NCBI GenBank assembly: GCA_016209865.1
Contig: JACQVL010000155.1
Coordinates: 1-14,475 of the forward strand
Direction: 5' to 3'
Length of the DNA: 14,475 nucleotides
Source of the DNA: Candidatus Latescibacterota bacterium
GTDB taxonomy: Bacteria; JAAXHH01; JACQVL01
The notes beneath the pieces are model-generated. The model saw only the letters and a list, made by a program, of their open reading frames with translations, made no database searches and was not told the origin of the DNA. Shown piece after piece: positions 69-14,281 of this stretch. Position numbers and translations under genes: made by a program. Position 1 is the stretch's first letter; each line of letters opens with the position of its first letter.

Positions 69-1229
69 TCAATACTCTCTCACCTGCTGCAGATACCCGT
101 CGAAATTCCGTTTCATCTCGTCTACGCTGTCCCCGCCGAATTTCTCCCGCATGGCGTCGGCGATGACGAACGCGACGACCGCTTCCCCGATGACCCCGGC
201 CGCCGGCACGGTGCAGATGTCCGACCGTTCTTTCGCGGAATCGAACGGTTCTTTCGTGTCGATGTCCACCGACCAGATCGTGCGCATGATCGTGGCGATC
301 GGCTTCAGCGCCCCCCGGACGAGGATGTCTTCCCCGTTCGACATCCCTCCCTCGATCCCCCCGGCCCGGTTGGTCTTCCGGAAGAACCGGCCGTCCGCGT
401 AGAAAATCTCGTCATGCACCTCCGAGCCGAGCCGCTCTGTCGTCCCGAACCCGAGACCGATCTCCACTCCTTTGACCGCCTGGATGCTCATCACCGCCTG
501 GGCCAGCCGGCCGTCTAATTTTCGGTCCCAGTGAACGTGACTCCCCAGGCCGGGCGGGACATGCGTCACCCGCACCTCGAAGACGCCGCCGATCGTGTCG
601 CGCAATCCCTTCGCCCGGTCGATCTCTGCGATCATCCCGGCTTCCGCCCGCGGGTCGGCGCACCGGACGGGCGACGCCTCCGCCCGGTCGCGGATGTCGT
701 CGGCCGTCAGCCCGGAGACGTCCGCCTCAACCGTCCCGATACGCACGACATGGCTCATCACCCCGACCCCAAACTCAGCGAGCAGGCGCTTCGCGATCGC
801 CCCGACCGCGACACGTGCGGCCGTCTCCCGTGCGCTCGCCCGTTCGAGGATGTTCCGCAGGTCCCGCTGGTTGTACTTCAGTCCGCCCGCTAAGTCGGCG
901 TGACCGGGCCGGGGCTTCGTCACCCGCCTGCGTTCGGTCGGCGTCTCCGGCCGCTCGATCGCCATCACGTCCGTCCAGTTTTTCCAGTCGTTGTTGCGGA
1001 TGAGGAGCGAGACCGGCCCGCCGAGCGTCTCCCCATGCCGGATGCCGCCGAGGATGTCGGCCTGGTCGCTCTCGATCTTCATCCGGCCGCCCCGGCCGTA
1101 GCCGCCCTGCCGGCGTTTGAGGTCGACGTTGATCTCTTCCGCCGAGACCTTCAGGCCGGCGGGGAGTCCTTCGAGGATGGTGGTCAACGCCGGCCCGTGC
1201 GATTCCCCGGCGGTCAGGTAGCGTAGCAT
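69..1229 (-). CDS. aroC: Chorismate synthase
   Basis: AroC converts 5-enolpyruvylshikimate-3-phosphate to chorismate using reduced FMN in the cytoplasm, the last step of the common aromatic pathway. The 386-aa product has the usual family length. The N-terminus carries GESHGPAL (about residues 8-15), followed by the FMN/substrate-binding stretch QGGYGRGGRMKIESD (41-55), GGIRHGETLGGPV, TKPRPGHADLAG, and near the C-terminus GGIEGGMSNGEDI and ERSDICTVPAAGVIGE. The reading frame stays open further upstream, but only through a heptamer repeat. The ATG at 1229 is chosen because GGAG lies five bases upstream (1235-1238) and the family begins at MLRYLTAGESHG. It is the last gene of the trp-aro cluster, 110 nt after the aroE stop, and that gap is mostly an inverted repeat. 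The C-terminus looks natural. Confidence 0.97.
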   Translation of the reverse strand: MLRYLTAGESHGPALTTILEGLPAGLKVSAEEINVDLKRRQGGYGRGGRMKIESDQADILGGIRHGETLGGPVSLLIRNNDWKNWTDVMAIERPETPTERRRVTKPRPGHADLAGGLKYNQRDLRNILERASARETAARVAVGAIAKRLLAEFGVGVMSHVVRIGTVEADVSGLTADDIRDRAEASPVRCADPRAEAGMIAEIDRAKGLRDTIGGVFEVRVTHVPPGLGSHVHWDRKLDGRLAQAVMSIQAVKGVEIGLGFGTTERLGSEVHDEIFYADGRFFRKTNRAGGIEGGMSNGEDILVRGALKPIATIMRTIWSVDIDTKEPFDSAKERSDICTVPAAGVIGEAVVAFVIADAMREKFGGDSVDEMKRNFDGYLQQVREY

Positions 1230-1240
1230 GACTACTCCAT

Positions 1241-1353
1241 ATTTTGGATTTTGGATTTTCGATTTTGGATTAAAGAACCCGTAAAGAAGCGTCCTATCCA
1301 ACCGGGACTTGCTTTGAGTACCAATCCAAAATCCAAAATCTAAAATCCAAAAT
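1241..1353. repeat. Inverted heptamer repeat pair, ATTTTGG type, between aroE and aroC
   Basis: The arms at 1241-1271 and 1323-1353 are 31 nt each and match as inverted copies at 29 of 31 positions, around a 51-nt centre. Each arm is 4.4 copies of ATTTTGG with single-base variants. The right arm is identical to the right arm of the pair at 2166-2276. It contains the aroE stop codon (1340-1342), and the left arm ends just upstream of the aroC Shine-Dalgarno sequence. In RNA it could form a long AU-rich hairpin between the two genes. Confidence 0.9.
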
Positions 1354-2206
1354 TTCTTCTCCTCAGTCCCTCTATCAACGCCGCGCGCATCACCTCGACG
1401 GGCGCCGCGCGCTCCGTCCACAACTCGAACGCGGCCGCTCCCTGGAACAGGAGCATGTCGATCCCGTTGGCCGTCCGACCTCCTCGTGCGCGTGCGGCCC
1501 GCAGCAGGGCTGTCTCGGCCACGTCGTACCGGGTGTCGTACACCGCGACCGCATCAGAGAACCACGTCGGGTCGAGCGGGATGTCCGTCGGGATCGCGTT
1601 GATGATGAGATCGGCGTTCCGGGTCGCCGGTCCCAGCTCTGATGCGTCGAGCGAGACCGTCTGCGCATCCGCGATGGCCGCCGTCTCACGCGCCCGTTCC
1701 CGGTTCCGCGCCGCGACCGTGATCGCGGCCGCCCTGGCTTGACGGCAGACGTCGCACGCCGCCCGCGCCGCGCCGCCCGCGCCGAGGATAACCACCCGCT
1801 GGCCGCTCACCTCGACTCCCCAGGTCTCTAAGGCGCGCAAGAGGCCGTACCCGTCCGTCGTCGTCCCGACGAGCGTCCCCGACCGGTTGAGGATCGTGTT
1901 GACCGCCCCGATGCGGTGGGCGTCGTCTGTGACTCGGTCAAGGTAGGGCAGCATCTCCGTCTTCAACGGCTTCGTCACGTTCACCCCCACCAGACCCAGC
2001 CCGCGGATGCCATCAACCGCCGCCTTCGCCCGGCCGGGCGCCACCTCGAACGCGACGTAGATGTAGTCCAGTCCGCACGCCTGGAACGCCGCGTTGTGCA
2101 TGGCGGGGGAGAGGGTGTAGCCGATCCCGTGGCCGCAGACGCCGACGACGCGAGTCGAGCCGGATATTTTGGATTTTAGATTTTGGATTTTGGATTGATG
2201 CGTCAC
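1340..2206 (-). CDS. aroE: Shikimate 5-dehydrogenase
   Basis: AroE reduces 3-dehydroshikimate to shikimate with NADPH. The 288-aa product shows the shikimate-binding start HGIGYTLSPAMHNAAF (about 26-41), NVTKPLK with the catalytic Lys near residue 82, GAVNTI (100-105), TTDGYG with the catalytic Asp near 118, the NADP loop LGAGGAARA (141-149), and a C-terminal QGAAAFELWT. The first Ser of the usual SLSP motif is Thr here. The GTG at 2206 is chosen because GGAGG lies five bases upstream (2212-2216) and no start codon exists between it and the conserved VVGVCGHG. As a result residues 4-13 (QSKIQNLKSK) are encoded by a repeat arm, and the last residues (FGF) and the TAG stop come from another. 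The ORF is open further upstream, but that part overlaps trpF in another frame and is not expected to be translated. Function is secure; the exact N-terminus needs protein data. Confidence 0.93.
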   Translation of the reverse strand: MTHQSKIQNLKSKISGSTRVVGVCGHGIGYTLSPAMHNAAFQACGLDYIYVAFEVAPGRAKAAVDGIRGLGLVGVNVTKPLKTEMLPYLDRVTDDAHRIGAVNTILNRSGTLVGTTTDGYGLLRALETWGVEVSGQRVVILGAGGAARAACDVCRQARAAAITVAARNRERARETAAIADAQTVSLDASELGPATRNADLIINAIPTDIPLDPTWFSDAVAVYDTRYDVAETALLRAARARGGRTANGIDMLLFQGAAAFELWTERAAPVEVMRAALIEGLRRRNFGF

Positions 2207-2276
2207 TGATACCTCCGCTCCAAAGATGGCTATGTTCTGGGTGTTAATCCAAAATCCAAAATCTAAAATCCAAAAT
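2166..2276. repeat. Perfect inverted heptamer repeat pair, ATTTTGG type, spanning the trpF end and aroE start
   Basis: The arms at 2166-2196 and 2246-2276 are perfect 31-nt inverted copies around a 49-nt centre. Units are ATTTTGG, ATTTTAG, ATTTTGG, ATTTTGG, ATT. The right arm contains the trpF stop codon (2263-2265), the left arm lies inside the aroE reading frame, and the 49-nt loop holds the aroE Shine-Dalgarno sequence and GTG start. Confidence 0.93.
2212..2216 (-). promoter_or_regulatory. Ribosome binding site that fixes the aroE start
   Basis: On the minus strand GGAGG is followed five bases later by GTG (2204-2206). It is the only good Shine-Dalgarno/start combination upstream of the conserved AroE N-terminus. 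It lies in the loop of the inverted repeat 2166-2276, so it could stay exposed if the stem forms. Confidence 0.7.
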
Positions 2277-2880
2277 CGCTCTGCCTGGCTGCCCGAACAA
2301 ACGCCCGGACTTTCCCATGATCCTTCATCCCCGGCCGCTGTTCCACTCCGCTGCTCGTATCGACGGCGTACGGACGAACTCGTCGAACGGCGTCCCCGAC
2401 GTTCTCCGGGGTGAGGCCGCCACTCAGGATAATCCGGTGCGGGGTGCCGCTCACCACATTCCAGTCGAACGTCCGGCCCGTCCCGCCGAACTGGTCCGGC
2501 GCGTACGTGTCGAGCAGGAACGCCGGGACGCGGTAGGCAGCAGCGACGGTCGTCCATGACGCATCATGAACCCGGATCGCCTTGATGACGGGCCGTTCGA
2601 CCTGTTCACACAGAGACGACGGCTCAGACCCGTGGAGTTGGACTGCGTGGAACAGGCATAGACGGGCGATGTCGTTCACCCGTTCCGCTGGCTCGTTCAC
2701 GAACACCCCGACCGTCGTGACGAACGGGGGGAGGCTGGCGACGATGTCCCTCGCGCGATCAGGCGGTATGTACCGGGGACTCCGTTCAAACAGGATGAAC
2801 CCTAAAGCATCCGCCCCGGCGTCCACCGCCGCGCGCGCATCGTCCATGTTCGTGATCCCACAGATTTTGACCCGCGTCAT
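2263..2880 (-). CDS. trpF: Phosphoribosylanthranilate isomerase
   Basis: TrpF isomerises N-(5-phosphoribosyl)anthranilate to CdRP by an Amadori rearrangement, in a single (beta/alpha)8 barrel. The 205-aa protein has KICGIT with catalytic Cys7, LLDTY with the catalytic Asp124, GGTGRTFDW (132-140), LSGGLTPENV (152-161) and the phosphate-binding VDTSSGVEQRPGMKD (173-187). Length is normal. The start ATG has a purine-rich GAGGG six bases upstream. The last residues, DFGF, and the TAG stop are read from a heptamer repeat; the family core ends a few residues earlier, so the original stop was probably displaced. It lies 77 nt after trpC (a gap filled by another repeat) and 56 nt before aroE. Confidence 0.97.
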   Translation of the reverse strand: MTRVKICGITNMDDARAAVDAGADALGFILFERSPRYIPPDRARDIVASLPPFVTTVGVFVNEPAERVNDIARLCLFHAVQLHGSEPSSLCEQVERPVIKAIRVHDASWTTVAAAYRVPAFLLDTYAPDQFGGTGRTFDWNVVSGTPHRIILSGGLTPENVGDAVRRVRPYAVDTSSGVEQRPGMKDHGKVRAFVRAARQSDFGF

Positions 2881-2904: not shown

Positions 2905-3013
2905 CCCCTTTTCTCTCCCACAAGGGGCGAGAAAGGGGGAGTCTCTCTCGACAGCGCCTATCTCCCCTCTCCCCACCGTGGGAGAGGGGTCGGGGGTGAG
3001 GGGCAAATGCCCC
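2905..3013. repeat. GC-rich hairpin repeat between trpC and trpF, entering the trpC coding end
   Basis: Two palindromic segments (about 2905-2946 and 2961-3000) are imperfect inverted copies of one another. The second holds a perfect 10-bp stem, 2964-2973 with 2980-2989, around a 6-nt loop. A further 14-nt palindrome (GGGGCAAATGCCCC, 3000-3013) follows. Translated on the minus strand it gives [14 protein letters not shown], a peptide type that I recognise as a signature of dispersed intergenic repeats in several bacterial phyla. It differs from the heptamer repeats elsewhere in the window. Confidence 0.75.
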
Positions 3014-3779
3014 CCACCAGCTCCCTCAACTTCCCGCCGATGTCGGGCGCTCGCATCAGAGATTCCCCGACGAGGATGGCGTCGAACCCGGCGGCCTGCA
3101 GGGTCAGGACGTCATCCCGGCTCTCGATCCCGCTCTCACTGACCGTCACGACCTCAGGCGGGATGCGCGCTTTCAGCCGGAGGGAGGTGTTCAGGTCGAC
3201 GCTGAAATCGGTCAGGTCGCGGTTGTTGATCCCGATCATCCGGGCTCCGGCGTTGCGCGCCTTCGCCAGGTCATCGTCGTGATGGACTTCGACCAGACAC
3301 TCCAGCCCCAGGTCCGACGCGGTACGCTGGAGCGCGATGAGTTCCGGTTCGGTCAACACCGACGCGATCAGCAGCAGGGCATCCGCGCCTATGGCGGCGG
3401 CTTCATAGACCTGGTAGTCATCGACGATGAAGTCTTTCCGGAGGACGGGGAGCGATACCTGTTCACGGATGGCGGTCAGGAACTCCGCTCGTCCCCGAAA
3501 GAAATGTTCGTCCGTCAACACCGAGATGGCAGACGCGTCGTTCATCTCGTACAGCCGCGCGACCGCAACCGGATCGGCGTCCTCCCGGATGATGCCTTTC
3601 GAGGGGGAGGCTTTCTTGAACTCAGCGATCACCGCGATCTGCCCGTCACGTCGGAGCGCCCGGCCGAACGGACGGGGAGCCGTCCGCTGGAACGTCTTGC
3701 TGCCGGGGAACGGGACGGCGCGCTTCCGGTCGGCGATCTCCTGCCGTTTATGGGCGATGATGCGATCTAAGATGGTCAT
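2958..3779 (-). CDS. trpC: Indole-3-glycerol phosphate synthase
   Basis: TrpC closes CdRP to indole-3-glycerol phosphate with loss of CO2. All active-site elements of the barrel are visible: [11 protein letters not shown] with Glu53 and Lys55, LRKDFI with the general acid Lys115, LVEVH with Glu164, GINNRDL with Asn185/186, and SESGI with Glu215 and Ser216. The recognisable family protein ends at LRELVGG, residue 257. The final 16 residues ([16 protein letters not shown]) and the TAG stop come from the adjacent repeat, so the 273-aa protein has a repeat-encoded tail. Its ATG overlaps the trpD stop as ATGA. The Shine-Dalgarno sequence is weak, which is consistent with translational coupling to trpD. 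Confidence 0.97.
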
Positions 3780-4786
3780 AGTTGAGTCGCCTGCTTCAGT
3801 GCCTCTAACTTGGCCAGTGCCGCGCCGGTGTCGATCGACGCTCGTGCCCGCTCGATGCCCTCCCGGAGGTCGGCCGCTATCCCGGCGACGACCAGGGCTG
3901 CCCCGGCGTTGAGGAGCGCCACATCACGGCGCGGGCCGTTCTCGCCCTGGAGGACGGCGCGGGCGATGGCCGCGTTCTCCGGCGCGTCCCCGCCATGCAG
4001 CGCCTGGAGAGGGGCGAGAGACAGACCGAGTGATTCGGGGGAGACGACGAATGTGGTGACGTGTCCCTCTTTCACCTCAGCCACCCGCGTGGGCGCGGTG
4101 ACGGTCAACTCATCCAGCCCGTCCTCGCTGTGGACGACGTACGCCCGCTCGACACCGAGGTTGTTCAGGACATGGGCGATCGGTTCGACCAGATGGGCGG
4201 CGTACACCCCCATCACCTGCGCGGTCGCGCCCGCCGGGTTGGTCAACGGGCCGAGCATGTTGAAGACCGTCCTGATGCCGATCTCCCGGCGCGGGCCTAT
4301 GGCGAACCGCATCGAGCTGTGGAGCAACGGGGCGAACAGAAACCCAATCCCGATCGTGTCGATACAGGCGGCCACCCGTTCCGGGGGAAGTTCGATGTTC
4401 ACGCCGAGCGCGCCCAGGACGTCTGCGCTGCCGCAGCGACTGGACGCAGAGCGGTTGCCGTGTTTGGCGATGGAGGCGCCCGCGCCCGCTGCAACGAACG
4501 CGCTCACCGTCGAGATGTTGAAGGTATTCCGTCCATCCCCGCCGGTCCCGCAGGTGTCGACGAGCGGGCGGGCGCGACAGTCGACGCGCGTCGCCTTCGC
4601 CCGCATCACCCGGGCGAACCCGGTGATCTCCTGGATCGTCTCCCCCTTCATCCGGAGGGCGGTCAGGAACCCCGCGACCTGGGCCGGCGTCGCCTCGCCG
4701 GCCATGATCATCTCCATCACGGCGACCGCTTCCTGTTCGGTCAGGTCTTCGCGTGTCACCACCTTCTCGATCGCGCTCCGGATCAC
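3776..4786 (-). CDS. trpD: Anthranilate phosphoribosyltransferase
   Basis: TrpD transfers phosphoribose from PRPP to anthranilate. The 336-aa protein has an N-terminal helical segment, then the glycine-rich PRPP loop [17 protein letters not shown] (about 77-93), [15 protein letters not shown] (108-122), LGPLTNPA and [10 protein letters not shown], all diagnostic of the family. The start is GTG at 4786, with AAGGAG six bases upstream (4793-4798) overlapping the end of trpG; only 3 nt separate the trpG stop from this start. It overlaps trpC by 4 nt downstream. It is a stand-alone TrpD and is not fused to TrpG. Confidence 0.97.
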
Positions 4787-4789
4787 GAC

Positions 4790-5356
4790 CTACTCCTTAC
4801 GGATGAAGTTCCTCAGTAAATCCTTCCCCACGGCCGTCAGGATCGATTCCGGATGAAACTGCACCCCATCGACGGGGTACGACCGGTGCCGGAGGCCCAT
4901 GATCAGCCCGTCGGCCGTCCGGGCGCTGACTTCCAGACACGCCGGAAAAGATGGCTCGTCGACGATGAGCGAGTGGTACCGGGTGGCGGTAAACGGAGAC
5001 GGCAGCCCGGCGAACACGGTGCGGCCGTCGTGGTGAATCTCCGATGTCTTCCCGTGGACGGGGACGGGCGCCCGGATGATGCGTCCGCCGAACGCCTGCC
5101 CGATCGATTGGTGGCCGAGACACACCCCTAAGATGGGAATCCGGCCCGCGAACCGTTGAATCAGGGACACGGAGATGCCGGCCTGGTCGGGAGTGCATGG
5201 ACCGGGCGAGATGACGACCCGGTCGGGCGCCATCCGGTCGATCTCTTCCAGGGTGATCTGATCGTTCCGGCGGACGATGAGCTCCTGGCCAAGCTCGCCT
5301 AAGTACTGGACGAGGTTGTACGTAAACGAGTCGTAATTATCGATGACAAGAATCAT
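4790..5356 (-). CDS. trpG: Anthranilate synthase, glutamine amidotransferase subunit
   Basis: This subunit hydrolyses glutamine and passes ammonia to TrpE for anthranilate synthesis. The 188-aa class I amidotransferase has [15 protein letters not shown] at the N-terminus, the oxyanion segment [11 protein letters not shown] (50-60), the nucleophile elbow [15 protein letters not shown] with Cys79, and HPESIL with His168 and Glu170 completing the triad. The start at 5356 is preferred over the longer open frame because it matches the family N-terminus, has GAAGGA about six bases upstream, and overlaps the trpE stop as ATGA. A PabA role (p-aminobenzoate) in addition is possible, as in other bacteria with a single TrpG/PabA; no pabB is visible here. 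Confidence 0.95.
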
Positions 5357-6843
5357 GACCGTTCCTTCGCATGCTGGATCGCCCGGAGCAGGGCAGCCGC
5401 CTTGTTCGCACATTCGATGTGCTCCGCCTCAGGGATGGAGTCGGCGACGATCCCCGCTCCCGCCTGGATGAACGCCCGTCCGTCTGTGATGACCATCGTC
5501 CGGATGGTGATGCAGAGGTCGAGGTTCCCCGAAAACCCGATATAACCGAGTGCCCCGCCGTAGACCCCGCGCCGGGTCGTCTCCAGTTCGTCGATGATCT
5601 CCATCGCCCGGATCTTCGGCGCGCCGGAGAGCGTCCCGGCTGGGAAGGTCGCCCGAAGAACGTCGAACCCGTCGAGGCCGTCGCGCAGCCGACCGACGAC
5701 GTTGGAGACGATGTGGATGACGTGCGAGTATTTCTCGATCGCCATCAGTTCCGTCGTCTGCACCGTGCCGTACTCGCACACCCGGCCGACATCGTTCCGG
5801 CCGAGGTCGACGAGCATCACGTGTTCCGCCCGTTCCTTCGGGTCGTTCAGCAGTTCCTGGCTGAGCGCGTCGTCCTCCGCCTCCGACGCGCCCCGCCGCT
5901 TCGTCCCGGCGATCGGCCGGACGACCACCTGGCCGGCGTCGACCTGGACCATCGTCTCCGGGGACGCGCCGACGATGTGGAGGCCGTCTAAGCGGAGGTA
6001 GTACAGGTAGGGCGACGGGTTGAGGGCGGTCAACGCCCGGTAGATGTCGAACGGGTCGCGGTCGATCCCGACGCTGAACCGCTGGGAGAGGACGACCTGG
6101 AAGACGTCCCCGGCGGCGATGTACTCCTTCGCCCGGCGGACGGCGTCCTGGAACGCCTCCGGGGTGAGGTTGGCGGTGACAGGGGACTTCTCATCGATAA
6201 GCGGACGAACGGACGACGGGGTGGGCGGAACCGGCTGGCGGAGCCGGGCGATCAGCTCATCGATCCGGTCGATCGCGCGGGTGTAGGCCGCGTCCGGTCC
6301 GTCGCGGTCGATCACTGCGTTGGCGATGATGAACATCTGCTGCTGCACATGATCGAACGCGATGACGGACCCGGCGATGATGAAATGGAGGTCGGGCAGG
6401 CCAAGCTCGTCCGGGTTCTCGTCCGGGATGGCTTCGAACGAGCGGACGACATCGTATGCGAAGTAGCCGACTGCCCCGCCGGAGAAGCGAGGTAAGGCGC
6501 CATCTGTGCACGTCCGGTACCGGCGCATCACCTCGCGCATCCGGTCGACCGGGTTCCCGGCGAGATGCTGGGTCTCGGCGCCGCTGATGACGTCGAGGCC
6601 ATCCGGGGTGCTCACCAGGCGTTGGAGCGGGTCCGCCCCGACGAACGAATACCGGGCCACCCGCTCGTCCCCCTCGAGGCTTTCGAGCAGGAACGCGTAC
6701 GGACTCTCCCGGCACACCTTGAGGAAGGCGGTCTCCGGCGTCTCCGACCCGATCGGGCGGGAGACCCAGACCGGCACGACGTTGGCCTGGGTCTGGGTGA
6801 TAAGCTGAAGAACGTGTTCGCGGGTTGGGGTGTGCATGAGCAT
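5353..6843 (-). CDS. trpE: Anthranilate synthase component I
   Basis: TrpE converts chorismate to anthranilate using ammonia from TrpG, the committed step of tryptophan synthesis. An N-terminal region with [19 protein letters not shown] (about 51-69) contains the LLES element that binds feedback-inhibitor tryptophan. The C-terminal chorismate-binding domain shows [57 protein letters not shown] and [10 protein letters not shown]. With the ATG at 6843 it has 496 residues, a normal length. A GTG at 6864 (503 aa) and an ATG at 6837 are in frame too. None has a clear Shine-Dalgarno sequence, and the GTG lies only five bases after the terminator T-run, so I favour one of the ATGs. It is the first structural gene after the leader and attenuator. 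Confidence 0.95.
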
Positions 6844-6869
6844 GTGCTGATGATTGTCCGTCACAGAAT

Positions 6870-6902
6870 AAAAAAGGCCGCTACCAGGATGCGGTAGAGG
6901 CC
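6870..6902 (-). terminator. Intrinsic terminator in the trp leader (probable attenuator)
   Basis: On the minus strand GGCCTCTACC and GGTAGCGGCC pair as a ten-position stem with one mismatch (6893-6902 with 6876-6885) around the 7-nt loop GCATCCT. Six T residues follow (6870-6875). It lies between the leader ORF stop (6939) and trpE, so it would stop transcription before the operon unless an alternative fold forms. A weak candidate antiterminator pairing is GCGGAG (6958-6963) with CTaCCGC (6891-6897), which would disrupt the 5' arm. I have not computed a fold. Confidence 0.85.
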
Positions 6903-6938
6903 AGGAACGTCAACGGAAGATCGAGGATTAGAAGGACA

Positions 6939-7085
6939 CTACAGACCGGGTTCGATGCTCCGCCTGACTTCCCGCCCCACCGGAAAGCCGTAAAAATACC
7001 AGGGGGTAAACGGGAAGGGCCGCCAGGGCCAGGCCTGAAACAGATACGGCCGGAATGACTGCGGAGACCGATGGGCATCGCACAT
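6939..7085 (-). CDS. Aromatic-rich leader peptide of the trp-aro operon
   Basis: A 48-codon ORF starts at an ATG about 50 nt downstream of the predicted transcription start and ends 36 nt before the terminator stem. Residues 11-34 contain 12 aromatic residues: Trp at 19, 21 and 29; Tyr at 14, 30 and 32; Phe at 11, 16, 24, 26, 31 and 34. The densest stretch is WPWRPFPFTPWYFYGF. A TTG at 7094 in the same frame has a better-placed AAGGA (7099-7103) and may be the true start, giving 51 residues. The inverted segments CTTCCCG (7011-7017) and CGGGAAG (6968-6974) flank the Trp-Tyr-Phe-Tyr codons, so a ribosome stalled there would block that helix. The role is inferred from position, composition and the terminator; translation is not shown. 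Such a peptide should have no function beyond sensing charged tRNA. Confidence 0.72.
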   Translation of the reverse strand: MCDAHRSPQSFRPYLFQAWPWRPFPFTPWYFYGFPVGREVRRSIEPGL

Positions 7086-7141
7086 GATGAGCAATCTATC
7101 CTTCTGCAGAGCCACATGCTGAAACGAGCCGAAACTAACCA

Positions 7142-7170
7142 AAAATATAGAAGATGGAGGAGAAAGTCAA
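7142..7170 (-). promoter_or_regulatory. Sigma-70-type promoter for the trp-aro operon
   Basis: On the minus strand TTGACT (7165-7170) is followed by TATTTT after 17 nt (7142-7147) or TATATT after 15 nt (7144-7149). The expected start is near 7135, giving a leader of nearly 300 nt before trpE. It is the only good promoter-like pair that I see upstream of the leader ORF. Confidence 0.65.
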
Positions 7171-7220: not shown

Positions 7221-7233
7221 CGGAAGAAAACAG

Positions 7234-7262
7234 TTGCTCCGGCGGCTCTATTTGAGTATACT
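7234..7262 (+). promoter_or_regulatory. Sigma-70-type promoter for the plus-strand gene set
   Basis: TTGCTC (7234-7239), a 17-nt spacer and TATACT (7257-7262) form a good promoter, with an expected start near 7269. It faces away from the trp promoter and would transcribe the DUF624-like gene and probably tmk and the small gene after it. Confidence 0.6.
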
Positions 7263-7314
7263 AAATTTTTAGCACTTGCAGGTGACTGATGAGTCGTGTT
7301 CTCTGAGTGGAGCC

Positions 7315-8070
7315 ATGGTCGAGCACAGCGGGAACGCGCCGAGTCTGCCCCCCTTAGGAGGCTGCCTGCGCCGTGTCTGGAAAAAGTGGTTCTGGAACGC
7401 GTACGACCATGCCGGGACGCTCGTCGTGGTCAACCTGCTGTGGGTGCTGGGTTCGTTGCTCCTCATCACGTTGCCCGCCTCGACCGCCGGACTGTTCTAT
7501 GTGACGGGCCGGATGGCCGCCTATCGGGAGGTGCGGCTCCGGGATTTCTTCGTCGGCTGTCGCGACTACCACTGGCGGGGCCTTCGGCTGTGCGGTCTGT
7601 ATGGGCTTACGGCCACTGTCCTCGCTGTGAACGTCTGGTTTTACGGTCGGCTGGCGGGTTCGTGGCAGTGGGCCGGCGTCATCCTCGGCGGCGGGATGAT
7701 CTGGGGGATGGCCTTCATCGGCCTGACGGGTGTATACGCGTTCCCCTTGCTGGTACAGACGAACGAGACGATCCGGGTGATCGTGAAGAAGAGCGCGCTC
7801 CTGGTCCTCGATAACCTCCGGTACACCGGGGCGCTGGGAGGGTGTGGGGTGGTGGTGCTGGTCATCGGGGGGATCACCGGGGCGGGGGTGGTGCTGGTCG
7901 CGGTGGCCGTCGTCAGCCTGCTCTTCAGCACCGGACTGCGCGAGGTGCTCAAGAAATACGTCTCCCTGGAAGGAGAGGACGCCGGTCAATTCCTCCCGCA
8001 ACCGACCACCGATCCCGAAGAGTCCCGTGGCTGGCGGGACCTGATCCGGCCATGGGATTACCGGCCATAG
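7315..8070 (+). CDS. DUF624/YesL-like integral membrane protein
   Basis: The 251-aa protein has hydrophobic segments at about 34-53, 92-110, 119-147 and 173-205 (the last long enough for two), so four or five membrane spans. The segment with NLLWVLGSLLLITLPASTAGLFYV (within 40-63), the charged stretch after it, and a C-terminal cytoplasmic tail ending RDLIRPWDYRP resemble the DUF624 (YesL) family. That family often lies near carbohydrate ABC transport genes and has no established biochemical role. No such genes are adjacent here. The ATG at 7315 is chosen for the start, with GGAG close upstream; in-frame GTG (7282) and TTG (7276) codons lie close to the predicted transcription start and cannot be excluded. 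Family assignment is by recognition of the pattern, not by search. Confidence 0.75.
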   Translation: MVEHSGNAPSLPPLGGCLRRVWKKWFWNAYDHAGTLVVVNLLWVLGSLLLITLPASTAGLFYVTGRMAAYREVRLRDFFVGCRDYHWRGLRLCGLYGLTATVLAVNVWFYGRLAGSWQWAGVILGGGMIWGMAFIGLTGVYAFPLLVQTNETIRVIVKKSALLVLDNLRYTGALGGCGVVVLVIGGITGAGVVLVAVAVVSLLFSTGLREVLKKYVSLEGEDAGQFLPQPTTDPEESRGWRDLIRPWDYRP

Positions 8071-8090
8071 GGGCACGGCTCGCCGTGCCC
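8071..8090. repeat. Short palindrome after the DUF624-like gene
   Basis: GGGCACGG, CTCG, CCGTGCCC: a perfect 8-bp stem with a 4-nt loop that begins at the base after the TAG stop. No T-run follows, so it is not a classical terminator. GGGCACGGC-type palindromes of this kind are commonly dispersed in GC-rich genomes. It may act as a 3'-end stabiliser or be a dispersed repeat. Confidence 0.5.
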
Positions 8091-8107
8091 GCGTAAGGGA
8101 TGTCGTG

Positions 8108-8752
8108 ATGCGCACCGGCGTGTTCATCGTGTTCGAGGGCCTCGACGGGGCGGGAACGACGACGCAGGCGGAGTTGATGAAACGCTGGCTCGACGAGGCC
8201 GGGGCCGGCCCCGTCTACCTGACGCGGGAGCCCACGAACGGGCCGGTCGGGAGCCTCATCCGGTCTGCCCTCCGGCGGCAACTCGTCCTCGACGCCCACA
8301 CCTTCGCGTTGTTGTTCGCGGCCGACCGGATGGAGCACCTCGCGTCAGACCTCCGGGAGAAGCTGGATCGCGGAGTGACCGTCATCTGCGACCGGTACTA
8401 TCTCTCGTCGTTCGCGTATCAGTGGCTCGACTTGAAGACTGAGTTGGAGTGGCTGGAGCAGCTCAATGCCCGGGCGATCCCTCCTGACCTGACGATCCTG
8501 CTCGACGTGCCGGCCGAGGTCTGCATCGAACGCATCCGCCGGGCTCGCTCGCGGGTCGAGCTCTTCGAGGAGGTCGATCGATTGCGCGGGGTGCGGGAGA
8601 ACTACCTGGCCATCGCGCACGGCCCCCGAAGCCAGCGGGAACGGATCGTCGTCGTCGACGGCAACCGGCTGGCCGAGGCGGTGCACGCGGAGGTCCGGGC
8701 GGTGGTGCAGGCCGAGTGGGGGGAGGCTTTCGTAAAAGCCCATCAGGCGTGA
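8108..8752 (+). CDS. tmk: Thymidylate kinase
   Basis: Tmk phosphorylates dTMP to dTDP with ATP. The 214-aa protein has FEGLDGAGTTTQ (9-20) at the P-loop position, the dTMP-binding TREP (39-42), DRYYLSSFAYQ (95-105) with the DRY motif, an Arg-rich lid RRARSR (144-149), and normal length. The P-loop has Thr17 where Walker A normally has Lys; all other motifs are intact, so I still call it a thymidylate kinase. ATG 8108 is chosen over GTG 8105 because AAGGGA (8095-8100) is seven bases upstream. It follows the DUF624-like gene by 37 nt and is probably cotranscribed. Confidence 0.93.
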   Translation: MRTGVFIVFEGLDGAGTTTQAELMKRWLDEAGAGPVYLTREPTNGPVGSLIRSALRRQLVLDAHTFALLFAADRMEHLASDLREKLDRGVTVICDRYYLSSFAYQWLDLKTELEWLEQLNARAIPPDLTILLDVPAEVCIERIRRARSRVELFEEVDRLRGVRENYLAIAHGPRSQRERIVVVDGNRLAEAVHAEVRAVVQAEWGEAFVKAHQA

Positions 8753-8794
8753 ATCGTGCATCCTGCCTCGTGAATCTATAAGGAAGAATCTCCC

Positions 8795-8983
8795 ATGCTC
8801 GGATCGTTGCTTCGGATGGTCGTCGCGTTCATCCTGTTTCAACTGGTACGGGAAGTGATCCGCATGCTCAGCAGGCCGGCCAGGCCGGAGGGACGGTTTC
8901 GTCCTCCGCCTCCACCCCCTCCGCGTACCCCCCGGATTCACATCGATCGCGAGAACATCGTCGACGCACGGTTCGACGAGTAG
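8795..8983 (+). CDS. Small membrane-anchored proline-rich protein, function unknown
   Basis: This 62-aa protein has an N-terminal hydrophobic helix (about residues 1-20), a basic segment, an uninterrupted run of seven prolines in RPPPPPPPRTPR (about 36-47), and an acidic tail IHIDRENIVDARFDE. Small proteins with one membrane helix and an ID-x-VVDA-F-E-like tail occur in several phyla, but I do not know a function. AAGGA lies about ten bases upstream of the ATG. It lies 42 nt after tmk and 37 nt before the next gene, on the same strand. Confidence 0.72.
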   Translation: MLGSLLRMVVAFILFQLVREVIRMLSRPARPEGRFRPPPPPPPRTPRIHIDRENIVDARFDE

Positions 8984-9020
8984 CGTTGGCATCCGCAACC
9001 CGTCAGACCTCATCACCTCT

Positions 9021-10823
9021 ATGCTGCGAAACTTTAGCTGGGTCATCGATGGACTCGTCGCGGGGATGGCCCTGCCGTCGAGCGCGTCCCATCAGGCGTA
9101 CGCCCCATTCGTTGAAGAAGACCGCCAGGCTGACCTGGAACAGGACTTGCTCGCCCTCAAGCACGAACACATCGCCGGGATCGTGTCGCTCACCCGGCAG
9201 CCGATCGACCCGATCCTCGCTCAGCGACTCGGACTGACGGTGCTCCACCTCCCCGTCGATGACATGGAAGCCCCGTCCCTCGATCAGATCAAGCAGTTCG
9301 TGGCGTACGTCGACCGGGTCAAGACCGATGGAGGGGTGGTCGTCCACTGCGGGGCCGGAGTGGGACGAACCGGGACGATGCTCGCCTGTTACCTGGTCTG
9401 GTCAGGCCAGACGGCGGACGAGGCCATCCAGGAGGTCCGGCGGCGACGGCCCGGCTCGATCGAAACGTTCGACCAGGAACAGGCGGTCCGGGACTACGCC
9501 GACTCCCTGGCGGCAGGACCGTCGTCCGCAGCCCCACTTCTCTCTGCCAGGAGCCCCGAACCCCGAATCCCGAACCCCGAATCCCGGTTTGAAATCCGTT
9601 CCGCCCGGCCTGACGACCTCGGCCGGGTCGTCGACCTGTGCGCCGCCGCGTTCTCCGCCCGCGATGGACGCGACCGCCGGGCCGATTTCGAACGCCGAAT
9701 CGCCAGCGACCCGGAGGGCCGGTTCGTCGACACCCACGTGCTGCTCGTCAACGGGCAGATCGTCGCCGCCCTCCGGGTGTACGACCGTCCCGTCCGCATC
9801 GGCCGGTGTATCCTCCGGTGCGCCGGGGTCGGGGACGTGGCGACCGATCCCGCCTGGCAGGGACGCGGCTACGCCTCCCATCTCCTGAGCGAGACGGTGA
9901 AGACCCTCAGGGCGCGCGACTTCGACCTGGCCTGGCTCACCGGCCGCAGCGCGTTCTACCGTCGTTTCGGATGGACGGACTGTCCGGGCGATGTGCTCGA
10001 CGTCACCCGCGTCGTCCCGTCACGGACCGCCTCCACCCCGTACCATATCGCGCCGCTCGACGTGGCACGCGACCGCGAACGGGTGTTCGACATCTACGAC
10101 CGGTTCAACCAGGAGCGGACGTACACCGTCGTCCGGAGCCGGGCGTACTGGGAGTGGCTCGCCCGGTATCGTCCCCTCTGGGACCCGGCGAGCTTCGTCC
10201 TGGGGGCGTACCAGGATGGCGACCTCGTCGGCTATCTGTGCGCGGAGCGTCGGGATGAAGAACTGCGTCTGGTCGAGGCCGGATGCCTCCCGCCCGATAC
10301 TGGAGGGATCGCCGCGCTGATCACAGCCGCCAGCGCGATCGCGGTCGATGAGGGACGAGCACGCGTCTGGGGCACCGTGCCCCTCTCGCCCGACGCGATC
10401 ACCCGTCTCCGGAACAGCGGGGTCGAGAGCCGTGTCCTGGTCGGGTCACCGGCGTTCGGAAATGTGATGATCCAGGTGCTTCATCTCGGCCGGTTCCTCC
10501 AGCGCCTCATCCCGGAGCTCGCAGCCCGGTTGGCGAAAACCCGCCGCCACGACTGGCGCGGACGGGTGGCGATCAGCAACGACGGACGGAACCGTGCCGT
10601 CCTTGAGATCGACGGACAGACGGTGCGGGTTGCCGAGGAAGGCAAGGCGGATATCGACATCCCCCTCACGCCCTCCCTCCTCGTCCCGGTGCTGTTCGGC
10701 CATCGTTCGTTCGCAGAGGTGGGACGCGACCGGGCCGTCCCTCTCCCGAAAGCAATCTCCCGTCTCCTCGCCGTCCTGTTCCCCCGGCTGTATCCGGTCT
10801 ACTGGGGGACGGATTATGTGTAA
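9021..10823 (+). CDS. Dual-specificity phosphatase fused to Eis-like GNAT acetyltransferase
   Basis: Residues 1-165 form a cysteine-phosphatase domain: the P-loop is HCGAGVGRTG with nucleophile Cys110 and Arg116, and the general-acid loop is PVDDMEAPS (Asp80/81). Residues about 190-600 resemble Eis-type acetyltransferases: a first GNAT fold with acetyl-CoA motif VATDPAWQGRGYAS (273-286), AFYRRFGW (311-318), a second GNAT-like part, and a C-terminal region resembling a sterol-carrier fold. The about 410-residue length of this part fits the Eis family. The linker contains SPEPRIPNPESR (178-189), encoded by a heptamer repeat, so the fusion may have arisen when the repeat removed a stop codon. 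No clear Shine-Dalgarno sequence precedes the ATG. Substrates are unknown. Domain calls are confident; function as one polypeptide is less so. Confidence 0.85.
   Translation: MLRNFSWVIDGLVAGMALPSSASHQAYAPFVEEDRQADLEQDLLALKHEHIAGIVSLTRQPIDPILAQRLGLTVLHLPVDDMEAPSLDQIKQFVAYVDRVKTDGGVVVHCGAGVGRTGTMLACYLVWSGQTADEAIQEVRRRRPGSIETFDQEQAVRDYADSLAAGPSSAAPLLSARSPEPRIPNPESRFEIRSARPDDLGRVVDLCAAAFSARDGRDRRADFERRIASDPEGRFVDTHVLLVNGQIVAALRVYDRPVRIGRCILRCAGVGDVATDPAWQGRGYASHLLSETVKTLRARDFDLAWLTGRSAFYRRFGWTDCPGDVLDVTRVVPSRTASTPYHIAPLDVARDRERVFDIYDRFNQERTYTVVRSRAYWEWLARYRPLWDPASFVLGAYQDGDLVGYLCAERRDEELRLVEAGCLPPDTGGIAALITAASAIAVDEGRARVWGTVPLSPDAITRLRNSGVESRVLVGSPAFGNVMIQVLHLGRFLQRLIPELAARLAKTRRHDWRGRVAISNDGRNRAVLEIDGQTVRVAEEGKADIDIPLTPSLLVPVLFGHRSFAEVGRDRAVPLPKAISRLLAVLFPRLYPVYWGTDYV
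9555..9586 (+). repeat. In-frame heptamer repeat arm, CCCGAAT type, inside the fusion gene
   Basis: Units CCCGAAC, CCCGAAT, CCCGAAC, CCCGAAT and CCCG, 32 nt in all, sit exactly at the junction between the phosphatase and acetyltransferase domains. Unit length and arm length match the other heptamer repeats of the window. No inverted partner is visible nearby. Confidence 0.85.
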
Positions 10824-10829
10824 ACGAGA

Positions 10830-10940
10830 GGGGTCAGGGGTCGGGGGTCAGGAGTCAGTAAGACAAAGTGCCAAACAAGAGATTGACTGATTGAATTCTG
10901 GTTTGTTGTTACCGACCCCTGACCCCTGACTCCTGACCCC
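10830..10940. repeat. Inverted heptamer repeat pair, GGGGTCA type
   Basis: The arms at 10830-10861 and 10909-10940 are 32 nt each, matching as inverted copies at 28 of 32 positions, around a 47-nt centre. Units are GGGGTCA, GGGGTCG, GGGGTCA and GGAGTCA. The pair fills almost the whole gap between the fusion gene and the next gene and ends a few bases before that gene's AAGGAG ribosome binding site. Confidence 0.9.
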
Positions 10941-10960
10941 TGAACCAAGGAGCCTCACCC

Positions 10961-11842
10961 ATGTTTACCCTCGCCGTCTTCACCGATGAAGTGTCGCAGG
11001 ACTTAGGCGTGGCGCTGAACCTGGCGCAGCGGTTTCATCTGGACGGGGTGGAAATCCGGTCGGTCTGGAAGAAGCCGCCCCACGAACTGACCGCGCCGGA
11101 GACCGACCGGATTCGGGGGATGGTCGAAGACGCCGGCCTGACGGTCGTCGGGATCGCCGCCCCGTTCTTCAAGTGCGCGATCCAGAGCGACGCGGACTAC
11201 CGACAGCACTTGGACATCCTGCGCCAGTGCATCCGCCTGGCGCACGGCCTCAACACCTCTCTCGTCCGGGTGTTCGCGTTCTGGAAGCAGGACCCGCTCG
11301 ACGCCTACTGGGACCGCATCGTCGCACGGTACCAGGAGCCGATCCGGATGGCGGATGCCGAAGGGGTGACCCTGGGCCTGGAGAACGAAGCCTCGACGAT
11401 GATCGGGACAGGAGGGGAAGCGCGGCGGCTGGTCGACGCCCTCGGCTCGCCCGTCGTCCTGCCGTTGTGGGACCCGGCGAATGAGGTGTTCGCCGATGAC
11501 GGTGAGCCGCCGTTCCCCGACGGGTATACTCATATCAAGCGCGACATCGTCCACATGCACATCAAGGATGCAGTCAAGGAGGGGCCAGACGGGCCGGCCT
11601 GCGTCCCGATGGGTGAAGGGGTGATCGACTACCGCGGCCACTTCAAGGCCCTGGTGGCCGATGGGTACACCGGATGCGTGTCGTTAGAGACGCACTGGCG
11701 GCCGAAGCCGGAACAATTAGCGAAAGACCTGCTCGACCGGCCTGGCGGCCAGGCTTTCTCCGAGTTGGGCGAAGAAGCCTCGCGCATCTGTCTAGAGAAT
11801 ACGCTCAGGATGTTAAAAGAAATTGGGTTGGTAGCTCCGTAA
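10961..11842 (+). CDS. Sugar phosphate isomerase/epimerase-like TIM-barrel protein
   Basis: The 293-aa protein matches the xylose-isomerase-like/AP-endonuclease-2 TIM-barrel superfamily. Candidate metal ligands sit at the expected strand ends: Glu141 in GLENEA, Asp171 in LWDPANE, His200 in HMHIKDA and Glu243 in SLETHW. The N-terminal FTDEVSQDL and the WDPAN motif are typical of sugar-phosphate isomerase/epimerase annotations. AAGGAG lies about eight bases upstream of the ATG. It lies after a repeat and 74 nt before aspS, so the neighbours give no clue to the substrate. An inositol- or keto-sugar-type isomerase or epimerase is plausible but not shown. Confidence 0.85.
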   Translation: MFTLAVFTDEVSQDLGVALNLAQRFHLDGVEIRSVWKKPPHELTAPETDRIRGMVEDAGLTVVGIAAPFFKCAIQSDADYRQHLDILRQCIRLAHGLNTSLVRVFAFWKQDPLDAYWDRIVARYQEPIRMADAEGVTLGLENEASTMIGTGGEARRLVDALGSPVVLPLWDPANEVFADDGEPPFPDGYTHIKRDIVHMHIKDAVKEGPDGPACVPMGEGVIDYRGHFKALVADGYTGCVSLETHWRPKPEQLAKDLLDRPGGQAFSELGEEASRICLENTLRMLKEIGLVAP

Positions 11843-11849
11843 AAGGGGT

Positions 11850-11900
11850 GGTCGGTGATCGGTGGCCAGTGGTCGGTATCTGATCTAACCGACCACCGAC
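11850..11900. repeat. Heptamer repeat, GGTCGGT type, with shortened second arm
   Basis: Four units (GGTCGGT, GATCGGT, GGCCAGT, GGTCGGT; 11850-11877) are followed after 10 nt by a 13-nt inverted partial arm (11888-11900). It looks like a pair that lost most of its second arm and centre. The aspS ribosome binding site (AAGGA) begins about five bases further on. Confidence 0.8.
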
Positions 11901-11916
11901 ATGAAAGGACGACTCC

Positions 11917-13695
11917 ATGACGCTCCATCCGTACCGGACGCATACATGCGGCGAACTCCGTCTCCCCCACGCGGGATCGACCGTGAGACTCTCCGGGTGG
12001 GTCCACCGCAAACGAGACCACGGCGGGGTGTTGTTCATCGACCTCAGGGACAATGACGGGATAACCCAGGTGGTCATCACGCCCGACCGGGCGATCCATG
12101 ACGCGGCGAGCGACCTGCATGTCGAGACCGTGGTGTGCTTCACCGGGCAGGTCGTCCCGCGTACGCCTGACACCGTCAACCCGAAGCTCAGCACGGGCGC
12201 GGTCGAAGTCGTCGCGGAGACGATGCAGGTGCTCGGCTCGGCGGACATCCTGCCGTTCCCCGTCGCGGACGACACCCAGGTCTCCGAGACGATCCGGCTG
12301 ACGTACCGCTTCCTCGACCTCCGCCGCCAGCGCCTCCATGCGAACATCATCCTCCGCTCACGGGTGATCGCCAGCATCCGGCGTCGGATGATGGAGATGG
12401 GGTTTCACGAGTTTCAGACGCCCATCCTGACGAGCAGTTCCCCGGAGGGTGCGCGCGATTACTTAGTGCCGAGCCGCCTGTACCCGGGCAAGTTCTACGC
12501 CCTCCCGCAGGCCCCTCAGCAATTCAAACAATTGTTGATGGTGGCGGGGTTCGACCGGTACTTCCAGATCGCCCCCTGCTTCCGGGATGAGGATTCACGG
12601 GCGGACCGGTCGCCGGGGGAGTTCTACCAGCTCGACTTAGAGATGTCGTTCGTTGAGCAGGAGGACGTGTTCCGGGTGGTGGAAGTCCTGTTTGCCGGGC
12701 TGTTCCCGGAATTCAGCGACTGGAGCGTCACCCCCCCCCCGTTCCCCAGGATTCCCTACGCGGACGCGATGCGCCGGTACGGCTCCGACAAGCCCGACCT
12801 GCGGTTCGGCCTGGAGATCGTGGACGTCACCGGGGTGTTTCGGGACGCTGAGTTCATCGCGTTCCGCCGGGTCGTGGACGCCGGCGGGATCGTCCGGCTG
12901 ATCCCCGTCCCAGACGTGGCCGGCCGTCCTCGCAGCTTCTTCGACAGTCTGGAAGCCTTCGTGAAGGAACTGGGCGGGCAGGGCCTCGCGTACCTCGTCT
13001 TCACCGATTCAGGGGTTAAAGGGCCGATCGCGCGGGCGCTGGGGGCGGACACCCTGGCGCGACTGAGCGACGCCGTCCCCCCACAGCCGGGGGCCGGATG
13101 GTTCTTCGTCGCCGATGAGGAACCGGTCGCGCGGACGATCTTAGGCCGGCTCCGGCTGCACCTGGCCGACCTGCTCGACCTGCGGACGCCGAACGCCTAC
13201 CGCTTCTGCTGGATCGTCGATTTCCCGATGTACGAGTTCGACGACGAGCAACAGCGCATCGTGTTCTCGCATAACCCGTTTTCGATGCCACAAGGGGGAC
13301 TGGAGGCGCTGACGACGCAGTCGCCGCTCGACATCTTAGCGTACCAGTACGACATCGTCTGCAACGGAGTCGAACTCTCCAGCGGCGCCATCCGGAACCA
13401 TCGCCCGGATATCATGTATCGAGCGTTCGAGATCGCGGGATACTCGAACGAGGAGGTCGACCAGAAATTCGGGGGCATGATCCGCGCCTTCCGCTACGGA
13501 GCGCCGCCCCATGGCGGGATCGCGCCCGGGATCGACCGGATCGTGATGCTGCTGGCGAACGAGGAGAATCTCCGCGAAGTCATCGCCTTCCCGATGAACC
13601 AGAACGCGCAGGACTTGCTCATGGGCGCGCCCAGTCCGGTGACCGAAGAACAGCTTCGCGCCCTCCACATCCAGTTGCGGCAGCCCAATTCATGA
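11917..13695 (+). CDS. aspS: Aspartyl-tRNA synthetase, probably non-discriminating
   Basis: This class II synthetase of 592 aa has the bacterial layout: an N-terminal OB-fold anticodon-binding domain (about 1-110), a catalytic core with [33 protein letters not shown] and motif 2 [10 protein letters not shown], a central GAD-like insertion (about 290-410), and motif 3 [22 protein letters not shown] near the end. The OB fold reads [11 protein letters not shown], with His35 where discriminating enzymes such as that of E. coli have Leu. In characterised bacterial AspRS this His goes with charging both tRNA-Asp and tRNA-Asn, the latter then amidated by GatCAB. AAGGA lies about seven bases upstream of the ATG. 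No terminator is evident after the stop. Confidence 0.97.
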
Positions 13696-13728
13696 GGAAA
13701 ATTTTTCGACCGGGCGGGAGATTAGGAC

Positions 13729-13757
13729 TTGACAATTTTTGATAGACTTCCTATATT
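13729..13757 (+). promoter_or_regulatory. Near-consensus promoter of the tRNA-tuf operon
   Basis: TTGACA (13729-13734), a 17-nt spacer and TATATT (13752-13757) form an almost ideal sigma-70 promoter, with the expected start near 13764. It lies 34 nt after aspS and upstream of four tRNA genes and tuf, so it fits a strong stable-RNA promoter. Confidence 0.85.
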
Positions 13758-13770
13758 ATCATGTCTGTTC

Positions 13771-13808
13771 AACCCAGGGGCTTTCTGTCCCTGTCACGGG
13801 CCTGGGTT
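13771..13808 (+). other. Leader hairpin ahead of the first tRNA
   Basis: AACCCAGG (13771-13778) and CCTGGGTT (13801-13808) form a perfect 8-bp stem around 22 nt at the start of the predicted transcript. It is probably a precursor-processing structure. No T-run follows, so it is not a terminator. Confidence 0.5.
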
Positions 13809-13826
13809 CGTGAAGAGCGGACGCGG

Positions 13827-13899
13827 GCCACCTTAGCTCCAACGGTAGAGCGGCTGATTTGTAATCAGTAGGTTCTCGGTTCGAATCCGAGAGGTGGCT
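13827..13899 (+). tRNA. tRNA-Thr (anticodon UGU)
   Basis: A 73-nt cloverleaf: acceptor GCCACCT with AGGTGGC, D stem GCTC/GAGC, anticodon stem GCTGA/TCAGT with loop TTTGTAA giving anticodon TGT, T stem CTCGG/CCGAG with loop TTCGAAT, and discriminator T. CCA is not encoded. First tRNA of the operon. Confidence 0.97.
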
Positions 13900-13913
13900 T
13901 CGTCAACAGACGC

Positions 13914-13995
13914 GGGGAGGTTCCGGAGTGGTCAAACGGGACAGACTGTAAATCTGTTGGCACTGCCTTCGGAGGTTCGAACCCTCCCCTCCCCA
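13914..13995 (+). tRNA. tRNA-Tyr (anticodon GUA)
   Basis: An 82-nt class II tRNA: acceptor GGGGAGG with CCTCCCC, anticodon stem ACAGA/TCTGT with loop CTGTAAA giving anticodon GTA, a long variable arm (about 13957-13970), T stem GGAGG/CCTCC with loop TTCGAAC, and discriminator A. It follows tRNA-Thr by 14 nt. Confidence 0.97.
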
Positions 13996-14002
13996 TTGCG
14001 GT

Positions 14003-14087
14003 GGTCGGTGATCAGTGGTCGGTGGTCGGTTAAGAGACGACAGGAATTTTCTCTTGTTTCCTGTCTTTACCGACTACCGACCACCGA
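14003..14087. repeat. Inverted heptamer repeat pair, GGTCGGT type, between two tRNA genes
   Basis: Left arm units GGTCGGT, GATCAGT, GGTCGGT, GGTCGGT (14003-14030) face a shorter right arm (14068-14087) carrying about 2.7 inverted units. The centre contains its own 8-bp inverted repeat, GACAGGAA (14039-14046) with TTCCTGTC (14058-14065). The element fills the 98-nt gap between tRNA-Tyr and tRNA-Gly; the other two gaps between tRNA genes are 14 and 41 nt. Confidence 0.85.
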
Positions 14088-14093
14088 ATCTGT

Positions 14094-14167
14094 GCGGGAA
14101 TAGCTCAGTTGGCTAGAGCGCCAGCCTTCCAAGCTGGGGGTCGCGGGTTCAAATCCCGTTTCCCGCT
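14094..14167 (+). tRNA. tRNA-Gly (anticodon UCC)
   Basis: A 74-nt cloverleaf: acceptor GCGGGAA with TTCCCGC, D stem GCTC/GAGC, anticodon stem CCAGC/GCTGG with loop CTTCCAA giving anticodon TCC, T stem GCGGG/CCCGT with loop TTCAAAT, and discriminator T. Confidence 0.97.
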
Positions 14168-14168
14168 T

Positions 14169-14199
14169 TGAAGAGGAAGCCGTCGCGACGGAGTCTTCA
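14169..14199 (+). other. Spacer hairpin between tRNA-Gly and tRNA-Thr
   Basis: TGAAGA (14169-14174) pairs with TCTTCA (14194-14199), enclosing the self-complementary CCGTCGCGACGG. It fills most of the spacer and is probably a processing structure. Confidence 0.45.
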
Positions 14200-14208
14200 G
14201 GGTGCGAC

Positions 14209-14281
14209 GCCCTTGTAGCTCAGCTGGTAGAGCAACACCATGGTAAGGTGTGGGTCGCCGGTTCGAGTCCGGCCGAGGGCT
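14209..14281 (+). tRNA. tRNA-Thr (anticodon GGU)
   Basis: A 73-nt cloverleaf: acceptor GCCCTTG with CGAGGGC (one T-G pair), D stem GCTC/GAGC, anticodon stem ACACC/GGTGT with loop ATGGTAA giving anticodon GGT, T stem GCCGG/CCGGC with loop TTCGAGT, and discriminator T. It lies 54 nt upstream of tuf. Confidence 0.97.

Follow-up and report, generated by a model that had tools for sequence, protein, structure and literature searches.

The leader that precedes trpE on the minus strand of the 14,475-nucleotide stretch of Candidatus Latescibacterota DNA analysed here (the window) is, in our judgement, probably a ribosome-mediated attenuator of an aromatic supraoperon, with Trp at the switch and Phe likely as the second input. 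Judged from its sequence, the leader is built like a classical ribosome-mediated attenuator, and its most likely role is to turn on the entire pathway in cells short of aromatic amino acids. Attenuators answering one aromatic amino acid are the textbook cases; if the present reading is true, one leader before an operon for all three would show how control of a branched pathway can rest on a single RNA switch. It would also add an uncultured phylum, with a concrete switch point, to the range of ribosome-mediated attenuation; in the part of the literature that was searched, no description of this kind of control was found for that phylum.

In the proposed mechanism, RNA polymerase would start near position 7135 and transcribe a short leader ORF. 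With charged tRNA plentiful, the ribosome would move beyond the Trp codon, which is W29 in the window, covering or disrupting segment 2; segment 3 would then pair with segment 4, and transcription would stop before trpE. With charged tRNA-Trp short, the ribosome would stall on the Trp codon and leave segment 2 free to pair with segment 3, and transcription would continue into the operon. In the model, segment 3 also stays sequestered when the stall is at a Phe codon two or three codons before the switch Trp; a shortage of Phe should therefore open the operon too, and the Tyr codons Y30 and Y32 of the window may add a third input. We infer that ribosomes do stall on this leader and that shortage of Phe, and possibly of Tyr, is sensed by it.

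Leader architecture at the window locus

The promoter, ORF, terminator, alternative fold, conservation and operon content described below were established from the sequence and its comparison with relatives. A consensus scan placed the promoter of leader and operon, TTGACT-17-TATTTT, at 7170-7142 of the minus strand (7142..7170). The leader ORF on the same strand (6939..7085; MCDAHRSPQSFRPYLFQAWPWRPFPFTPWYFYGFPVGREVRRSIEPGL), with equivalents in 16/16 genomes, begins with an ATG at 7085 and stops at 6941-6939, giving 48 codons, or 51 codons from an alternative in-frame TTG start at 7094. Residues 11-34 comprise six Phe, three Tyr and three Trp, i.e. 12/24 are aromatic; among 596,522 overlapping 24-residue six-frame windows from the other loci compared, none held at least 12 aromatics with at least two Trp. 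An obvious Shine–Dalgarno sequence was absent from most leaders as judged by eye. The ORF is followed by an intrinsic terminator (6870..6902, minus strand) with the sequence GGCCTCTACC-GCATCCT-GGTAGCGGCC and then T6, in which segment 3 (6902-6893) is the 5' arm, segment 4 (6885-6876) follows the loop, and the T6 occupies 6875-6870; trpE begins at 6864.

Predicted folds and arm alignment identified segment 2, GGGGCGGGAAGUCAGGCGGAG (6958..6978, minus strand), as the 5' side of an antiterminator whose 3' side, segment 3 included, lies at 6893..6918 of the same strand. In the window's lineage, segment 1 (CUUCCCG; 7011..7017, minus strand) is predicted to form a protector helix with the CGGGAAG of segment 2, and the corresponding CTTCCCG (7017-7011)/CGGGAAG (6974-6968) pair also forms when the fold of the whole leader is predicted. 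The original prediction had described the promoter, an ORF of 48-51 codons with residues 11-34 half aromatic, a terminator with T6 followed by trpE, and this complementary pair; all were found as described, and the residue count was exact. Just past the switch Trp, GGNNTTTTTAYGG (6988-7000 in the window, and equivalents) is conserved in most leaders; it resembles the RNA polymerase pause consensus.

Conservation of the leader and content of the operon

The phylum sample comprised 16 genomes from five genera, representing five lineages, and included the window's genome, a 3.75-Mb metagenome-assembled genome in which the window lies on contig C98. The window's own lineage is denoted G000; the other modelled lineages are G001, G011, G013 and genus g3. 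Each of the 16 genomes has the promoter, the leader ORF, a near-identical terminator and then the first trp gene, with the promoter (TTGAC(T/A)-16/17-TAT..T) at the equivalent place and a similar distance throughout. The terminator pattern, GGCCTCTACC-N(2-9)-GGTAGYGGCCTTTT, was found exactly once in every one of the 16 genomes and in 0/368 genomes searched outside the phylum, and all 16 copies had an aromatic leader ORF just upstream. F-(T/V)-(x)-W is present in every leader, as in MTTVTYFPISFMGYWRQSFLFTWRPFYGKRRDVKRSHEHE (G013), MTSVNSSRSSRFYYWRKQSDLFTWWPFYGTRRHVMRSGA (G012) and MTFIVSPISVYRIQAWLWRVFPFTRWFFTGLR (G001). Leader ORF, aromatic codons and terminator are accordingly kept in all 16 genomes compared; the lack of conservation that would have spoken against the original prediction was not seen. 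Among the regions upstream of trpE at ~40 distant loci, only one classical-looking Trp leader was seen, MRYALIAMVTQFYCWWSK in G027 (L010), which belongs to another phylum.

Within genus g3 (12 species), the stretch from stop codon to terminator is 99.5% identical, and sequences past the terminator show no positional relationship. At the third positions of leader codons 16-40, identity among five genomes is 97.6%, compared with 70-88% in their trpD genes. With synonymous and non-coding positions both constrained, the constraint bears on the RNA and not on the peptide alone.

Downstream of the leader, the minus strand of the window encodes trpE (anthranilate synthase component I; 5353..6864; Pfam PF00425 and PF04715), trpG (4790..5413; PF00117), trpD (3776..4786; PF00591 and PF02885), trpC (2958..3779; PF00218), trpF (2263..2880; PF00697), aroE (shikimate dehydrogenase; 1340..2180, start approximate, frame open to 2557; PF08501 and PF18317) and aroC (chorismate synthase; 69..1226, likely ATG at 1226; PF01264), and the contig ends just downstream of aroC. 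The operon of G013 runs on one strand as trpE-trpG-trpD-trpC-trpF-aroE-aroC-aroKB (fused)-aroQ and continues as trpB-trpA-TIGR00300-family protein-aroH-DAHP synthase-fused tyrA/pheA, spanning ~16 kb with a convergent gene after it. A scan of this operon revealed no terminator-like site above chance level that stood out between genes, and aroA was not found in the cluster. For G005 and G012, trpB, DAHP synthase, prephenate dehydrogenase and prephenate dehydratase lie on the leader's contig and strand. Contig C163 of the window's genome starts with aroKB, aroQ, trpB, TIGR00300, DAHP synthase and tyrA/pheA in a G013-like order, which is consistent with C98 and C163, unjoined contigs, being one operon split between them. 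All operon genes would be co-transcribed. The original prediction of trp genes joined to aroE and aroC was correct as far as it went; the operon proved larger than described there, continuing in G013 through aroKB to tyrA/pheA, and the mixed aromatic codons of the leader fit the near-complete Trp, Phe and Tyr operon of the relatives.

In G012 (L084:6060-9358), a clade-3 fused TrpEG and then trpS replace trpE-trpG under the same leader. Ten species of this genus gave a weaker match of the same kind over 740-780 residues, and G005 and G014, also of this genus, keep trpE and trpG. The same leader is therefore kept before different anthranilate synthases.

Several features of the neighbourhood were observed in addition. 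Heptad repeats (ATTTTGG/CCAAAAT) in inverted pairs with arms of ~31 nt lie at the aroE-aroC (1239-1353) and trpF-aroE (2164-2277) junctions of the window; similar residues, NPKSKIQNPK, open the tyrA/pheA frame on C163, so the repeat element may recur in the genome. Upstream of the leader promoter, a 14-nt motif, AAGAAAACAGTTGC (7224-7237, plus strand), is kept in relatives with small changes and at a variable distance from that promoter, and by eye resembles the -35 part of a promoter that would serve the divergent gene at 7276-8070, which gave a weak MusI-family match. The divergent side as a whole (7276-14281) holds membrane protein, thymidylate-kinase-like, acetyltransferase-like and sugar-epimerase-like genes and aspS, syntenic in relatives, with four tRNA genes (Thr, Tyr, Gly, Thr) following in the window.

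Alternative folds and the modelled switch

Folding was modelled for the RNA downstream of a stalled ribosome, with upstream RNA barred from pairing across the ribosome, and the switch position given here is a modelled one. For antiterminator folds, the stall was set at the Trp nearest segment 2, and the RNA was folded to the end of the terminator loop. In these truncated folds a long hairpin between segment 2 (GAGGC...GCGAAG and variants) and the 5' arm of the terminator formed in all five lineages, strong in G013 and g3 and weaker in G000, G001 and G011. A fold that includes the terminator's 5' arm and excludes the terminator had been envisaged by the original prediction; its presence in five lineages, the conservation in 16/16 genomes and the operon content of the relatives together support the proposed attenuation of a joint trp-aro operon. 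The antiterminator arms align gap-free, and 88% of cells are standard pairs, compared with 24-55% in slid registers. Covariation in the arms amounted to three double changes, not above shuffled controls, and was limited because only five lineages are independent.

For G013 and three modelled g3 leaders, predicted P(terminator) was 0.00-0.03 with the ribosome stalled at the switch Trp and 0.97-0.99 with the stall two or three codons past it. The window leader gave values of 0.20-0.71 for stalls at codons 24-31 (F P F T P W Y F) and 0.88-1.00 for stalls past codon 31; for stalls before codon 24 the terminator was favoured, and segment 2 can there pair instead with codons 23-30, via CUUCCCG/CGGGAAG or the adjoining CCCCCUGG stretch. 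The switch is sharp in 13 genomes and weaker in the window's leader and two others. With the ribosome stalled at the switch Trp, the terminator prevails at equilibrium in the leaders of the window, G011 and G001 (P 0.66-0.75), where the switch would therefore rely on co-transcriptional folding. The modelled edge fell 1-6 codons past the switch Trp for assumed footprints of 9, 12 or 15 nt, and each 3 nt of footprint moved it by approximately one codon. In every lineage, 17-26 nt separate the switch Trp (W29 at 7001-6999 in the window by stall-position folding) from segment 2 downstream, a distance comparable to that in the classical trp leader.

As a control, the stretch between ribosome and segment 3 was shuffled (n = 200 per sequence). 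The observed P(terminator) was reached by 0/200 shuffles for G013, 2/200 for each of two g3 sequences, 10/200 for G011, 16/200 for G000 and 18/200 for G001, and sequestration of segment 3 in G001 and G011 was no better than in shuffles. When the full-length leader was folded without a ribosome, P(terminator) was 0.99-1.00 in every lineage modelled, with segment 2 pairing for the most part with ORF codons 1-10 (G001, G013 and three g3 leaders) or partly with the 5' UTR (G011). Blocked initiation is therefore predicted to shut the operon down.

Candidate amino acid inputs and rival readings

The control zone was defined as the ten codons up to the modelled edge, with the edge taken from the model before the enrichment test. 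Over the five lineages, aromatic codons made up 23/50 in control zones and 29/148 elsewhere (p = 0.0004); aromatics are frequent in the rest of the leader ORF too. In the window, stall-position folding and this enrichment place the zone at codons 23-32 (PFPFTPWYFY; 6990..7019, minus strand), with one Trp, three Phe and two Tyr. Trp and Phe codons occur in the zone in 5/5 lineages and Tyr codons in only 2/5 (window, G011), so that all three occur together in the window's leader and not in the zones of all lineages. The claim that several aromatic amino acids are sensed is partly supported: it is plausible, and more so for Phe than for Tyr. From the modelled zones, Trp is the best-supported input, Phe is likely to be the second, and Tyr, a weaker candidate than Phe, is a possible input in the window's leader.

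The Phe-Tyr pair right after Trp was considered as control codons in all members, and this was rejected for G013 and g3, where stalls on the pair give the terminator at equilibrium; by the sequestration measure, the Phe after Trp sits at the edge in these leaders. As the pair is at or past the modelled switch in 13/16 genomes, its codons are not to be assumed to be control codons there, and their conservation in these 13 probably reflects the RNA. The same observation favours an attenuator that reads Trp only, in which Phe and Tyr codons would be kept for base pairing, for a polymerase pause at GGNNTTTTTAYGG or through history. Trp stands at the switch in every lineage, synonymous positions are conserved around the Phe-Tyr pair as well, pointing to RNA rather than peptide, and the G012 operon contains trpS; in addition, Tyr availability was without effect on the Corynebacterium glutamicum AroR leader despite its Tyr codon, according to PMC11802643. 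Set against this are a Phe codon two to three codons before the switch Trp that is invariant in 16/16 leaders, the enrichment of aromatic codons in the modelled control zone, a Tyr codon kept somewhere upstream of the first Trp in every leader, and an operon that makes Phe and Tyr too. We regard restriction to Trp as rather unlikely, with a chance large enough to be taken seriously.

Two further readings have much less in their favour. Arrest by the nascent peptide, as in TnaC, would mean that an FTW(R/W)PFYG-like sequence in the exit tunnel halts the ribosome when a free aromatic amino acid is present, and some non-aromatic residues near Trp (T, R, G) are indeed common to lineages. The spacing and identity of residues near Trp shift between lineages, however (FTWW, FTWR, FTPW, FTRW, FVWR), strong constraint is also seen at synonymous and non-coding positions, and stalling by an abundant amino acid would, in this geometry, turn a biosynthetic operon up, not down; we consider this very improbable. 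The whole window leader folded alone is not unusually stable (z -0.68), as might be expected of a plain upstream terminator or small RNA with an untranslated ORF and no attenuator. Because the feature is judged real on comparative evidence, not on the stability of this lone fold, and because all five lineages keep the ORF, the placement of its codons and the alternative fold, such a reading has, we think, next to no chance. The preferred reading is thus attenuation by a translating ribosome, with the switch at Trp and Phe as likely second input. In its widest form, one leader would read the charging of Trp, Phe and, in some members, Tyr tRNA, gate nearly all of the aromatic pathway from DAHP synthase to the end products, and be kept phylum-wide even with TrpEG-trpS behind it; this version is put forward tentatively. 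Simple codon changes in a reporter would separate the parts played by Trp, Phe and Tyr codons.

Comparison with known systems gave no Rfam match of the leaders to Trp_leader or any other leader family at the gathering threshold or at E <= 5. A T-box was rejected, there being no Rfam T-box match, as was a TRAP-regulated leader, since a search of the 16 leaders for tandem (G/U)AG repeats gave a longest run of one repeat. The leader resembles Escherichia coli trpL and pheL in its short ORF with control codons, its segments 1-4 and a terminator before the first gene, and its spacing from control Trp to segment 2 is similar to that of trpL; it differs from both in its longer ORF (32-48 codons), its mixed Trp/Phe/Tyr codons, the near-complete aromatic supraoperon downstream and the absence of an Rfam Trp_leader match. 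Control codon mixtures for several end products are known from the ilvGMEDA and thr leaders of E. coli. These and the multi-amino-acid leader Rli60 of a Listeria branched-chain operon (PMC5864092) share with the present leader the control codons for several end products, and differ in that these are branched-chain or Thr/Ile, not aromatics. In the part of the literature that was searched, no described leader combining Trp with Phe/Tyr codons was found. Nearest in codon content among those described is the C. glutamicum AroR leader (Neshat 2014, via PMC11802643), an attenuator with Phe-Tyr-Phe codons upstream of the aroF operon, which likewise has mixed aromatic codons before a DAHP synthase operon; it differs in having no Trp codons described, no trp genes behind it and no effect of Tyr availability. 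The supraoperons of Bacillus subtilis, controlled by TRAP, and Desulfovibrio vulgaris, with a predicted attenuator, also gather trp and common-pathway aro genes in one large cluster (PMC1173090). The likeness to D. vulgaris lies in operon content, and the present system differs from that of B. subtilis in having a leader ORF with aromatic codons.
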